Source of the DNA: Candidatus Nomurabacteria bacterium
Lineage (GTDB): Bacteria > Patescibacteriota > Saccharimonadia > Saccharimonadales > Saccharimonadaceae
DNA: 55,854 nt
NCBI GenBank assembly: GCA_031275815.1
Contig: JAISOF010000005.1
Location: forward strand, 1-55,854
Reading direction: 5' to 3'
Below are positions 1-55,854 of the stretch, piece by piece. The notes beneath the pieces were generated by a model. The model searched no databases. It was not told the origin of the DNA and saw only the letters and a list, made by a program, of their open reading frames with translations. The number at the start of each line of letters is the position of its first letter. Positions within the stretch are counted from its first letter, which is position 1. Made by a program: the position numbers and the translations under genes.

Positions 1-23
1 TTTGCTGTTCGCCGAGTGCAGCC

Positions 24-72
24 AAATCGGTTAAGGCTGAAGGGTGTGGGGTGCCCACACCTTAACCGATTT
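24..72. other. Bulged inverted-repeat hairpin upstream of the GT35 gene
   Basis: Positions 24-34 pair perfectly with 62-72 (11 bp). Positions 43-50 pair with 54-61 (8 bp) around a 3-nt loop at 51-53, leaving an 8-nt one-sided bulge at 35-42. There is no T-run on either side, so it is not an obvious intrinsic terminator. It may be a leader structure, an operator or the end of an element outside the window. Another repeat-like motif (RC of TTGTTGCATAATT) lies at about 105-117. Confidence 0.5.
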
Positions 73-191
73 GACGCGAAACGTACTCTTTGACGGGGTG
101 ATAATTATGCAACAATACCGTCCGGCAATTCGCAATTATTTTCAAAAAACTAGTTTTCTTTTTGCGCAGACCATGATAGACTTGATGTAAT

Positions 192-5240: not shown

Positions 5241-5335
5241 CTTAAGAATCTGGGGCTAAAGATCTACTCATTCACCTTTGATTAAAAGGAAGAAGTCCAC
5301 TTAAGAATCTAAGCTTAAAAATCTACTCGTTCACC
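5241..5335. repeat. 36-nt imperfect direct repeat of the tsf 3' end
   Basis: Positions 5241-5276 and 5300-5335 match at about 30 of 36 bases. The second copy spans the last codons and stop of the tsf remnant (V-N-E-stop on the minus strand). The first copy also reads V-N-E-stop, so the gene's tail plus its 3' flank was duplicated. It may be a recombination or integration scar. Confidence 0.6.
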
Positions 5336-5700
5336 CCCAGCTCAATGCGGCGGAATTTGTTGACCGAGATGTTTTCGCCGGTTTTAGCGATGTAGCTTTT
5401 GATGAAGTCGGCCACCGTGAGCTTGTCGTCTAGGATGTATTTTTGGCTCAAGAGGACTTGGTCTTCGAAGTGTTTTTCCACCTGGCCGGCGATGATTTTT
5501 TGTTTGACGCTGGCTGGTTTTTTGTCGTCTTTTAGCTTGGCGGCGTATTCTTTTTCGACACGCTTTTTTTCGCTGGCGGGGATGTCGCTGGCCGCTACAT
5601 AGAGCGGGTTCATAGAGGCAATTTGCATCGCCAGGTAGTGTGCTAGCTGCTTAAAATCGTCGGTTTTGGCTACAAAATCAGTCTCGCAGTTTAGAAACGC
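5323..5700 (-). pseudogene. tsf: Elongation factor Ts, 5'-truncated remnant
   Basis: The minus-strand frame ending at 5323 carries the EF-Ts hallmark NCETDFVAKTDDF followed by the C-terminal dimerisation region (ending RIELGVNE). EF-Ts recycles EF-Tu GDP. The N-terminal UBA-like domain and first part of the core, about 75 residues in the family, are absent. Homology stops within a codon or two of position 5701, exactly where the perfect 37-bp end of the RAYT element begins, and the missing part is not on its far side. The open frame continues into the element to 5808 but reads unrelated residues. Since tsf is normally essential and single-copy, either an intact copy exists elsewhere or this is a 3' fragment left by rearrangement. 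Assembly error is also possible. Confidence 0.7.
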
Positions 5701-6463
5701 AAGGGACGCACCCTCCACAGATGTACAAAACGTGATTTTTGCTAGTTGGCAATCAAGGCGGTTAAAAACAAAACTCCACACCGTCCTGATGTTTAGTTTT
5801 TCTATCATACTCGGTCAAAAACATTTTATAATTAACCAATGACATCCCGCTAAGAGACACATCTAGCCAGCTTGGGCTAGACTTGCGTTTGCCCAAATAA
5901 TATTTCACGCTTGACCACTCGTAGTTCAAAAAGTATCTGGGATTGCAATGAATATATCTGGTTAAGTGCTTATTTTGTTCATCTGTTTTCACTCTTACGG
6001 TTTTAAACCTCCCCTCGAATATAGCGCCTCGCCAAGCATAATGTTTTCTCAAATACTGAGAATATTCAGCCCCTATAATCTTCATTAATTCACTTATACC
6101 CCCATCCGCGGAAAACTCTTGAAGTTGAAGATGAAAATGATTTTCCATTAGGCAGTACGACACAACTTTTACTTGAAGTTTTTTGTACGGCACTCCTTTG
6201 ATATTCGTTTCGTTAGGGTTATTATTCAAATGACGGTCAATCAGCCCCATAAAAAACCGAAAATCCCGCTCACAATTAAACAGTTTTCTATCACTGATTG
6301 CGTGATTGAAAACGTGATAAATCCCTCCAGCTTCAAACGCCCTGCGGGAATATTTTGATGACATTGTCTGGCTCCAATCTCCCACCCATCTCAAATATGA
6401 ATTACCACTATCTATTATACGCCAATAATCACGTTTTGTACATCTGTGGAGGGTGCGTCCCTT
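5701..6463 (-). mobile_element. RAYT (Y1/HUH transposase) element with 37-bp perfect inverted ends
   Basis: Positions 5701-5737 are the exact reverse complement of 6427-6463. Each end contains the palindrome CTGTGG-AGGG-TGCGT-CCCT, with the CTGTGG foot pointing inward. The only gene inside is a REP-associated tyrosine transposase. RAYT genes are classically flanked by inverted REP palindromes, and this matches. The left end abuts the truncated tsf; the right end abuts the promoter of the 6521 gene. No target-site duplication is seen, as expected for HUH transposases. Confidence 0.75.
5762..6364 (-). CDS. REP-associated tyrosine transposase (Y1_Tnp / RAYT)
   Basis: This is an HUH-superfamily single-strand DNA transposase. 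It carries the ENHFHLQL metal-binding HxH motif (His76 and His78 with the start used here), the N-terminal strand GGIYHVFNHAI, and the downstream helix with YSQYL followed by GAIFEGRFK, which in this family holds the catalytic tyrosine. The 200-aa length fits RAYTs rather than the shorter IS200 TnpA. The start is placed at MSSKYSRRAF (6364); the frame extends 10 codons further without a ribosome site. It sits alone between perfect inverted ends. All visible motifs are present, so it may be active. Confidence 0.85.
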   Translation of the reverse strand: MSSKYSRRAFEAGGIYHVFNHAISDRKLFNCERDFRFFMGLIDRHLNNNPNETNIKGVPYKKLQVKVVSYCLMENHFHLQLQEFSADGGISELMKIIGAEYSQYLRKHYAWRGAIFEGRFKTVRVKTDEQNKHLTRYIHCNPRYFLNYEWSSVKYYLGKRKSSPSWLDVSLSGMSLVNYKMFLTEYDRKTKHQDGVEFCF

Positions 6464-7968: not shown

Positions 7969-8165
7969 TTTTTCCACCTCCGTTGACCGCTGACAACTTT
8001 TTATTACGCAAAAGACACAAGCCACCTCGTTCTAGTTCTGGTTGAAGACTCTGCCCGACCATCAATACCTTTAGATTTTCAAGGAGCTCCTAAAAGCAGA
8101 TTTAGGCTCTGTGTGTGATTGTAACATACATTTTGGTTAGTAGCAAAGATAAGCGTTTTCTTGGC

Positions 8166-8303
8166 TTTGTTGCATAATTTCCCTTTGATTTGCGGAGGAG
8201 TGGTTGTTGGGTTTTTCGCGGGCGAAAAATAATTCTTGGGTATGCCAGCTTCCCGGCAGGGGAATTACACCAACAAAGGCTGCAAGGTGGTTGTGCAACA
8301 AGA
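8166..8303 (+). repeat. Short composite structured repeat, A-type module with tail
   Basis: Starts with TTGTTGCATAAT (8167-8178), then a GGAGGAG-containing stretch and a hairpin TTTTTCG-CGGG-CGAAAAA. It ends with the tail motif shared with the large copies (GGAATTACACCAACAA, then TTGTGCAACAAG at 8291-8302). The two ends are inverted versions of each other (TTGTTGCATAA against the reverse of TTGTGCAACAA). The structured core of the longer copies is missing, so this looks like an internally deleted member. The rest of the gene-free stretch 7969-8165 shows nothing recognisable. Confidence 0.65.
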
Positions 8304-18507: not shown

Positions 18508-18750
18508 GGTTTTGTTGGATAATCACCTTTGTTGGGTTTATTCTATTTGCCGGTCTTGTTGGTGTAGTTCTCCTGCCGGTTTTATTACTCTAATGCTCTT
18601 GTTGGTGTGCTTCCCTTGTCGGTCTTGTTGCACAACCACCCACCTTCACAGGTACAGAACCGTGCCATCCGGTCCAACCTGTGGCAGTCGGTTCTTCGCT
18701 TCAATCTGTCGTCACAGATTGAAGAGCCCTGTGAAGTGGGGGTTGGTAGC
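18508..18750 (-). repeat. Structured interspersed repeat, copy B1 (core on the minus strand)
   Basis: Read on the minus strand this is the core plus tail: outer stem arm CCCCCACTTCACAGG, hairpin TTCAATCTGT-GACG-ACAGATTGAA, hairpin GAACCG...CGGTTC with tip GGT-TGG-ACC, and closing arm CCTGTGAAGGTGGG. A tail of CAACAA-rich units then reaches 18508. It belongs to the same tip subfamily as the copy at 19811 and is inverted relative to it, across the ZIP gene. Confidence 0.8.
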
Positions 18751-18843
18751 TCTTCATTAACATCACTCCCCCGCAGTCATTCCAAGTTCGCCCCAGAAGT
18801 TAAATGATTGGATGTTGGAACCAGTCCGGAATGACGCTAGTGG

Positions 18844-19710: not shown

Positions 19711-19810
19711 GTTCCCTCCAACTTTTCTGATATCAAGCATAGCAAAGAATCTGGTTAAATACAAGTTGTTGTTCTGCTGCAAGGTTTTTAATTTCAGTGG
19801 TTTTTGTTGC

Positions 19811-19985
19811 GTACTCCCCACTTCACAAGGCTCTTCAATCTGTGACGACAGATTGAAGCGAAGAGCCGACCTGCTGCAGGTTGGACCGGATGGCACGGTT
19901 TTGCACCTGTGAATGTGGGCGGTTGTGCAACAAGTCCGGCAAGAAGAACATGCCAACAAGAGTATTACGCCAACCAGAATGACGG
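19811..19985 (+). repeat. Structured interspersed repeat, copy B2
   Basis: Same core as the other copies: CCCCACTTCACA, hairpin TTCAATCTGT-GACG-ACAGATTGAA, then GAGCCG...CGGTTT (paired through G-U), tip GGT-TGG-ACC as in B1, CCTGTGAATGTGGG, then a decayed tail. It fills most of the 328-nt gap between the ZIP gene and the next gene. Nothing else is seen at 19711-19810. Confidence 0.8.
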
Positions 19986-34807: not shown

Positions 34808-34894
34808 ATTTGCTCTTTAAAAAGCGTTGGTTGATGGATATAATGTTCATTTTAGCACAAAAACTTAAAAATCGAAACTTTAGTTTTGGCGGGG

Positions 34895-35100
34895 GTCTTG
34901 TTGCATAATTCCCCCGTTGTTTTTACGGAGGAGCGGTTGTTGGGTTTTTCACGGGCGAAAAGCTGCTTGATGTTAGGGTTGCCTGTTGTTGGTTTTTGTC
35001 ACGGACGAAAAGCTACTAATAGATAATTCTTGGTCATACCAGCGTTGGGGTTTCTTGAGGATGAGTTTTGAAGTTTGTGGTGATAGTACTCCTGCCATCT
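34895..35100 (+). repeat. A-type repeat module, copy A3 with internal duplication
   Basis: CTTGTTGCATAATTCCCCC, GGAGGAG and GTTGTTGGG, then two successive TTTTT-CACGG-GAAAAGCT hairpin blocks (near 34946-34963 and 34991-35013). The GAGTTTTGAAGTTTGTGG stretch shared with the 31467 copy follows. It opens an 832-nt gene-free region (34808-35639) that holds this module, a tandem 27-mer, the B3 copy and the rpmG promoter. Confidence 0.7.
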
Positions 35101-35209
35101 ACCCCCACCCCCTCAAGGGGACAATGCCCAAGTAATTACTATTAGCTAGCTTTTCTGTTGGGATAGATGGGAGGTTTTTAGTCGCACAACACAGATTGCA
35201 AACTTTTTT

Positions 35210-35262
35210 CTCTGTTGCGGGTCAGACCTTGCTTTTCTCTGTTGCGGGTCAGACCTTGCTTT
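35210..35262. repeat. Two tandem copies of a 27-nt unit
   Basis: CTCTGTTGCGGGTCAGACCT plus TGCTTTT occurs at 35210-35236 and again at 35237-35262, essentially identical. It lies between the A3 and B3 modules. The near identity indicates a recent duplication. Confidence 0.85.
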
Positions 35263-35304
35263 GTTGCAAATTGCAAAACACTGAAAAAACTTGAGTAACC
35301 CCCA

Positions 35305-35563
35305 TCAAGGTCTTGTTGACACCAACCCCCACTTCACAGGACTCTTCAATCTGTGACGACAGATTGAAGCGAGGAACCGACTTCCACCGGTAACGACCGG
35401 ATGGCACGGTTTGAGTACCTGTGAATGTGGGTGGTTGTGCAACAAGAGCGGCAGGAAGAACATACTAACAAAAGAACTATACCAAGAAAACCGGCAAGGG
35501 AATTACACCAACAAGAGCGGCAAGCAGAATAAACCCAACAAAGGTGATTATGCAACAAAACCA
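35305..35563 (+). repeat. Structured interspersed repeat, copy B3, with full-length tail
   Basis: Outer stem 35326-35340 against 35418-35431; hairpin TTCAATCTGT-GACG-ACAGATTGAA; second hairpin with tip CCGGT-AACG-ACCGG (35387-35400), where other copies have CCAAT-AACG-ATTGG. The tail 35432-35563 is a string of imperfect 26-29-nt units (CAACAA...CGGCA) ending ATTATGCAACAAAACC, the inverse of the A-module start at 34898. Confidence 0.85.
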
Positions 35564-47723: not shown

Positions 47724-47778
47724 GGCGTTGTTGCATAATTCCCCGTTGTTTTATGGAGGAGTAGTTGTTGGGTTTTAA
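47724..47778 (+). repeat. A-type repeat module, copy A4 (short)
   Basis: TTGTTGCATAATTCCCCGTT, GGAGGAG and GTTGTTGGGTTTT, without the CGGG hairpin. It lies about 75 nt before B4 and, with the B4 tail end at 48080, makes a composite bounded by inverted TTGTTGCATAAT motifs. Confidence 0.65.
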
Positions 47779-47850
47779 GAGCATAAAGTTTTAAGACTAT
47801 GAGATTGCGAAAAGAAGTTGAGATAGAATGAACATCAAACTGGCTCCAAC

Positions 47851-48080
47851 GAGGTCTTGTTGGCACCAACCCCCACTTCACAGGGCTCTTCAATCTGTGA
47901 CGACAGATTGAAGCGAGGAACCGACTGCCACCAATAACGATTGGATGGCACGGTTCTGTACCTGTGAATGTGGGTGGTTGTGCAACAAGAGCGGCAGGAA
48001 ACTTGCACCAACAAAAGAACCATACCAACAAAACCGGCAAATAAAATAAGCCCAACAAAAGTGATTATGCAACAAAACCA
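47851..48080 (+). repeat. Structured interspersed repeat, copy B4 (reference copy)
   Basis: Outer stem 47870-47884 with 47961-47974. Hairpin 1: CTTCAATCTGT (47888-47898), loop GACG, ACAGATTGAAG (47903-47913). Hairpin 2: GAACCG (47918-47923) with CGGTTC (47951-47956), TGCCA with TGGCA, tip CCAAT-AACG-ATTGG (47931-47944). The tail of CAACAA/CGGCA units ends ATTATGCAACAAAACC. One tail unit present in B3 is missing here. Confidence 0.85.
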
Positions 48081-55735: not shown

Positions 55736-55854
55736 CAAGGTCTTGTTGGCACCAACCCCCACTTCACAGGGCTCTTCAATCTGTGACGACAGATTGAAGC
55801 GAGGAACCGACTGCCACCAATAACGATTGGATGGCAACGGTTTTTAGTACCTGT
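55736..55854 (+). repeat. Structured interspersed repeat, copy B5, cut by the window end
   Basis: CCCCCACTTCACAGG, hairpin TTCAATCTGT-GACG-ACAGATTGAA, GAACCG, tip CCAAT-AACG-ATTGG, CGGTTT, and the start of CCTGT at the last base. The flank CAAGGTCTTGTTGGCACCAA is shared with B4. The closing arm and tail lie beyond the window. Confidence 0.85.

Follow-up and report, generated by a model that had tools for sequence, protein, structure and literature searches.

A two-hairpin repeat with IS5-type ends and its probable kinship with palindromic elements inside genes of other genera

A short element that folds into two hairpins is interspersed through a small bacterial genome from a family of the Patescibacteria, probably one of the Saccharibacteria. 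On the evidence of its sequence, the simplest reading of this unit in its own genus is a non-autonomous transposon of the IS5 type (IS903-like), that is, a MITE. The explanation that we favour for the whole, and in which we have reasonable confidence, is that this IS5-type MITE is also a branch of a wider family of palindromic elements, and that its fold is kept either by selection or by templated repair.

The two-hairpin element and its copies

The window, that is, the whole stretch of 55,854 nucleotides that was analysed, holds five copies of a two-hairpin unit of 136–141 nt. In the best copy (47851–47992, forward strand) the two hairpins lie between IS5-type ends, GGTCTTGTTGG... on the left and ...GTTGTGCAACAAGAGC on the right. 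As described in an earlier note on this DNA, an outer stem formed by CACTTCACAGG (47874–47884) and its partner CCTGTGAATGTG (47961–47972) closes both hairpin 1, CTTCAATCTGT-GACG-ACAGATTGAAG (47888–47913), and hairpin 2, GAACCG..CCAAT-AACG-ATTGG..CGGTTC (47918–47956), all on the forward strand. The compensatory change from CCAAT to CCGGT in the tip of hairpin 2 is likewise present, in the forward-strand copy at 35307–35448 with its CCGGT-AACG-ACCGG tip, as are the G-U pairs in the lower stem of the copy at 19798–19936 (forward strand, variant hairpin 2). The remaining copies are found at 18622–18754 on the reverse strand, with a variant hairpin 2 and a decayed left end, and at 55737–55854 on the forward strand, where the contig end truncates it. 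All five places that the note had listed were recovered (the best copy there as 47851–47991) and the two-hairpin core is common to them, except that the hairpin 2 tips at 18.6 and 19.8 kb differ and have no AACG loop. The five copies appear to be intergenic, so in-frame insertion into genes of the RPE type, known from Rickettsia, was not encountered in the window.

The count of five holds for the window only, as a BLAST search of the genome's own assembly (1.07 Mb, 43 contigs) found approximately 40 copies of the core. Many are at contig ends, which indicates that the assembly breaks in the core repeat and that the true copy number is probably above 40. A sister genome of the same genus (JAITKW01, Pcl387_bin78) carries nine copies with 80–84% identity over the core. 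No match to the core was found in Rfam, either at the gathering score or with E values up to 1, nor in phage, plasmid and viral collections; as far as the libraries searched show, the description of an undescribed interspersed element of no known family is supported.

Composite units and a second MITE

The extent first proposed for the element, 47851–48080, has to be shortened: the folding unit stops near 47992, and 47992–48079 consists of separate degenerate CCAACAA repeats that belong to a larger composite. In the window's genome the core is often nested in such a unit, which has ends of its own together with the degenerate repeats. The composite around the 47.9-kb core spans 47724–48079 (forward strand; ends GGCGTTGTTGCATAATTCCCC and GTGATTATGCAACAAAACC; degenerate CCAACAA/TTGTTGG repeats), that around the 35-kb core spans 34894–35562 (forward strand; ends GGTCTTGTTGCATAATTCCCC / GTGATTATGCAACAAAACC), and a short relative with ends of the same type and without the core is present at 8163–8303 (forward strand). 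Target duplications flanking the composites were looked for and none was found. The 35-kb composite also contains a short direct repeat, TCTCTGTTGCGGGTCAGACCTTGCTT (35205–35260), and similar units were seen in other copies.

Part of a second palindromic MITE is present at 1–119 on the reverse strand. It measures 157 nt when intact and has the same TTGTTGCATAAT end as the core MITE; an intact copy at another place in the genome (L091) is flanked by the 9-bp duplication ACTCATCGA. It was also observed that the end motif of this second MITE (window 1–119; L091; L034), with the end TTGTTGCATAATTATCGCCC, is repeated near the starts of many contigs.

Ends, target duplications and the resident IS5 element

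The assignment to the IS5 type is drawn from the ends of the element, its target sites and its co-occurrence with a transposase gene. Two copies in the sister genome are 136 nt long, have the ends GGTCTTGTTGCAYAAY / RTTRTGCAACAAGACC and are flanked by perfect target duplications of 9 bp (TTAAAATGT for one, GTTACAATA for the other), this being the length of duplication that IS903-type elements make. Such a duplication was seen in only two of the nine sister copies; in the window's own genome, a search around the core copies found none. A transposase of 338 aa (L087:665–1678) scores 255.9 bits against the NCBIfam IS5 model NF033579 (cut-off 140); approximately 60 bp from the end of its coding region lies the end GGTCTTGTTGCATAATCCCC, the MITE counterpart of which is GGTCTTGTTGCAYAAY, so that terminal inverted repeats are common to the MITE and the resident IS5 element. 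Further decayed and truncated copies of the transposase gene are present in the window's genome and, among 41 genomes searched, its relatives were found only in the two that bear the MITE, the sister genome having a remnant only. To judge from the observed ends and duplications, the resident transposase would integrate the MITE in trans, leaving the 9-bp duplications behind. In being bounded by terminal inverted repeats, non-coding, present in high copy number, associated with a 9-bp duplication and accompanied by an autonomous partner in the genome, the element resembles other IS5-family (IS903-like) MITEs; it differs in its interior, where a conserved two-hairpin module takes the place of the remnant of a deleted transposase gene.

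These features bear on the earlier suggestion that the fold is a single-stranded DNA hairpin substrate for a transposase. Tyrosine (Y1/RAYT) transposases use single-stranded DNA hairpins, whereas DDE transposases of the IS5 class act on double-stranded ends; the ends and 9-bp duplications are those of an IS5-type DDE transposon, for which the fold is not needed as a single-stranded substrate, and the suggestion is not borne out. That the unit is a REP-like element moved by a Y1 RAYT transposase through such a hairpin is accordingly most improbable. Two RAYT-like genes are present in the window's genome, and the copies in genus g2, the genus richest in them, are mostly on one strand per contig among the matches listed, both of which would suit a RAYT; yet the genus-g2 genomes, with as many as 19 copies, had no reported RAYT, and genus g36 has many RAYTs with no copies among the matches listed. 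On this co-occurrence a RAYT was rejected as the mobiliser, and for g2 it is largely refuted; in the sister genome no RAYT was found. REP/BIME elements with their RAYT are similar in being interspersed, imperfect and sometimes paired hairpins, and differ from the present case in the lack of a reported RAYT in the richest genus, in relatives that lie inside genes and in the DDE-type ends. As a separate observation, a Y1/RAYT-like transposase ORF lies at 5701–6463 of the window within 41-nt inverted arms, adjoining the EF-Ts gene (tsf, 5323–5808), the 5′ part of which was not seen just upstream. One of the 41-nt arms holds tsf codons (EGASL), so the flank seems to have been copied in inverted form there too.

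Conservation of the fold

Folding of the core at 47851–47992 gave −77.5 kcal/mol with z = −9.9, and copies from the sister genome reached z = −14.9; the fold is not due to chance. When 32 copies from the two genomes were aligned, 92.8% of cells were found to pair and two-sided changes were present in 15 of the 57 pairs. The number of cells with two-sided changes (70) exceeded that in shuffled versions (mean 20) and in slid versions (5 to 29); since shuffling keeps relatedness and a few independent events suffice, these figures speak for conservation of pairing and not for its cause. Selection on the fold had been put forward as the simplest reading, and of this the conserved pairing stands, both controls being far lower. 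Between species, C-G is replaced by T-A in hairpin 1, and CCG/CGG by TTG/CAA at the base of hairpin 2; hairpin 1 is invariant within the window, and its compensatory change is visible only against the sister genome.

On the element strand there are 52 G-U cells and 26 A-C cells, an excess that agrees, if weakly, with folding of that strand. Together with the conserved pairing, this twofold excess is what would be expected of a structured non-coding or cis-regulatory RNA domain selected for a function in transcripts, which we nonetheless regard as very unlikely: Rfam gives no match, the ends and duplications are those of a mobile element, and relatives occupy unrelated genes, some in sense and some in antisense. 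The non-coding RNA domain that had been proposed is not supported in that form: nothing points to a gene for a stand-alone non-coding RNA, and IS5-type ends and 9-bp duplications are found instead.

Under the favoured explanation there are two ways in which the fold could be kept: selection acting on the hairpin, as RNA or as DNA, and templated repair of a quasi-palindrome at replication. A serious possibility, to which we give somewhat less than even weight and which is compatible with a MITE, is that the pairing is kept with no selection at all, template switching at replication copying one arm onto the other and also building the arms specific to each locus (see below). Arms that differ between loci yet match each other agree with this, as do the arms in queA, which overlap native codons and are present only with the core; against it, copying alone would not preserve the loops and the internal G.A mismatches, yet both are conserved, and the same arms would be expected from selection on the stem.

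Relatives in other genera

A covariance model (R1) was built from the copies of the window's genus and used on other genomes, and a second model (R2) was made in the reverse direction from the genus-g2 elements, both with short calibration. With R1, 12 more genomes of the family gave matches, full-length in all but one (G020); for five other genera the E values were 1e-12 to 1e-16. These relatives have in common two hairpins with RACG-type tips. The matches include in-frame insertions in argS (L139) and in an ORF of 412 aa (L142), and R1 also matches many genus-g2 copies on the expected strand. Run against the reverse strand of the copies it was built from, the model still gives 34 bits, so that weak R1 matches could be driven by structure alone. 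In the reverse direction, R2 gave weak full-length matches at L142 (0.0012) and L139 (0.02) and reached the window's element at chance level only. Hairpin 1 recurs with all 24 nt identical in G020 (WRNW01, another genus), where it forms part of another two-hairpin palindrome that is inserted in frame into prmC. The tip CCNGTRACGACNGG is present in 93 of 245 genomes of the family, up to 19 times per genome, and a reversed control pattern had few matches.

It could be argued that the element is an IS5 MITE and nothing further, its hairpins being accidental leftovers and its likeness to palindromes inside genes a convergence of long hairpins. The ends, the 9-bp duplications and the co-occurring insertion sequence account fully for its spread, and the failure of R2 to reach it is in keeping with this; but both internal hairpins stay paired through two-sided changes between species, R1 matches of 55–70 bits exceed the reverse-strand score of that model, and the 24-nt hairpin 1 is shared exactly with the prmC palindrome, so we consider this account unlikely. 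By the models, homology between the window's element and the in-gene elements of genus g2 is probable, the link being an indirect one through the intermediate genera, and the MITE interior, with its two hairpins, T-RACG-A tips and common closing stem, is most likely one branch of a palindromic family of elements that occurs across this bacterial family. No paper on palindromic elements in combination with Saccharibacteria or Patescibacteria turned up in a search of the open-licence literature, which is not proof of novelty; the palindromic insertion family appears to be previously unreported.

Copies inside genes and their orientation

Of 93 copies fetched, 76 are contained in ORFs with a length of 230 aa or more, and the other 17 look intergenic by their flanks. 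According to NCBIfam, the host genes include valS, queA, argS, tsaD, obgE, lysS and prmC, along with those for a NifS/IscS-type cysteine desulfurase and a P-type ATPase. There are 56 sense and 20 antisense copies in ORFs; sense copies fall in the PVTTG frame (22) or the PRNDG frame (34) and never in the TAA frame, for which the chance is (2/3)^56 if frames are free, with the proviso, tempered by the intergenic look of the 17 others, that the ORF filter cannot reveal copies broken by TAA. The two frames give different peptides, and it therefore seems to be the DNA or RNA that is conserved, and not the peptide. Splicing or ribosome bypass of these copies is disfavoured, no sense copy being in the TAA frame. 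In other genera the relatives sit in frame inside housekeeping genes and, to judge from frame use, would be translated, with arms that seem rewritten to suit each site.

Among the matches listed, contigs that have two or more copies account for 81 copies, and 78 of these are on the majority strand of their contig. Part of this bias is explained by the dominant direction of ORFs, approximately 75–80% of ORF sequence running the same way in three contigs examined in large part. GC skew of the flanks, taken in the orientation of the element, is negative for 39 of 51 sense copies and for 17 of 20 antisense copies; that it is negative for the latter too favours an effect of the replication strand, but is suggestive only.

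Arms matched to the locus

Each copy has on either side a stretch of approximately 20 nt; the two stretches pair with one another, and their sequence varies between sites. Over 80 distinct loci, pairing gave −30.8 kcal/mol for own arms, −13.2 for swapped arms and −12.1 for control sequence taken 150 nt further out, and an arm's own partner was the best of all at 60 of the 80; these figures are for windows adjoining the core, windows farther out giving a weak difference. Even when the comparison was confined to a single site in orthologues of queA, the mean was −27.7 kcal/mol for own and −18.5 for swapped arms, with overlapping values. The distance between fixed markers in queA is 72–93 nt at empty and 162–201 nt at filled sites, and six filled sites fold at −27 to −35 kcal/mol as against −3 to −9 for four empty ones. 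Targeting of pre-existing inverted repeats is disfavoured, as no comparable stem is present at the empty queA sites. Given their overlap with native codons, the queA arms seem to be rewritten and not simply added, in what is a variable loop. The lower stem of hairpin 2 has A.G/G.A (57 and 55 of 84) and many boundaries of the core show CGAG..CGAG, patterns that fit tandem G.A mismatches.

Several individual sites were also noted. In queA of two genus-g2 genomes (L242 and L249) the core is in opposite orientations at the same site with similar arms, so the core can invert. A subfamily (L190, L199, L209, L212 and L241) keeps the same arms (REEYP...NDGYSR in sense) from one gene to another, which shows that the core can take its arms along. 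At one queA site of G313 (L258), two palindromic elements adjoin, each with its own arms.

As a tentative proposal, which we think may well be wrong, the element could be a self-extending palindrome: its mobile two-hairpin core would insert in frame into essential genes and afterwards render the flanks at every site mutually complementary, always with the same orientation relative to the replication strand. To our knowledge, such a mechanism of insertion or maturation has been described for no known mobile element.

Known palindromic elements and wider meaning

Palindromic repeats that code for protein are known mainly from Rickettsia and Wolbachia. The Rickettsia elements (RPE) are short palindromic repeats of 105–146 bp that are found both between genes and, in frame, within conserved protein genes (PMC2229807, PMC10969869). 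The relatives in other genera resemble these and the Wolbachia elements as short palindromes in frame inside protein genes; going by those descriptions, they are set apart by phylum and by two hairpins with RACG tips, and in the window's genus also by the IS5 ends and duplications. The site-specific complementary arms do not feature in the RPE descriptions drawn on here (PMC2229807, PMC10969869). ERIC, Correia/NEMIS and RUP are palindromic MITE-like repeats of 100–200 bp with RNA hairpins, and similar to that extent; they belong to other phyla and, as far as they are described in that source, have unlike ends (PMC2229807). Integron attC sites were considered for hairpin shape only, the right end GTTGTGC being by eye a misfit to the R/L box GTTRRRY.

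A system that is comparable, and abundant, is found in unrelated bacteria with small genomes, inside aminoacyl-tRNA synthetases and tRNA-modification enzymes, which suggests that such repeats arise repeatedly in reduced genomes. The form in the window, carried by an IS5-type element, illustrates the way in which an ordinary transposon can take up such a module: the transport, by an IS5-type MITE, is ordinary, while the module and its family are unusual and the building of arms could be new in kind. Arms matched to their locus make testable the long-standing question whether compensatory palindromes come about by selection for folding or by templated copying at replication.
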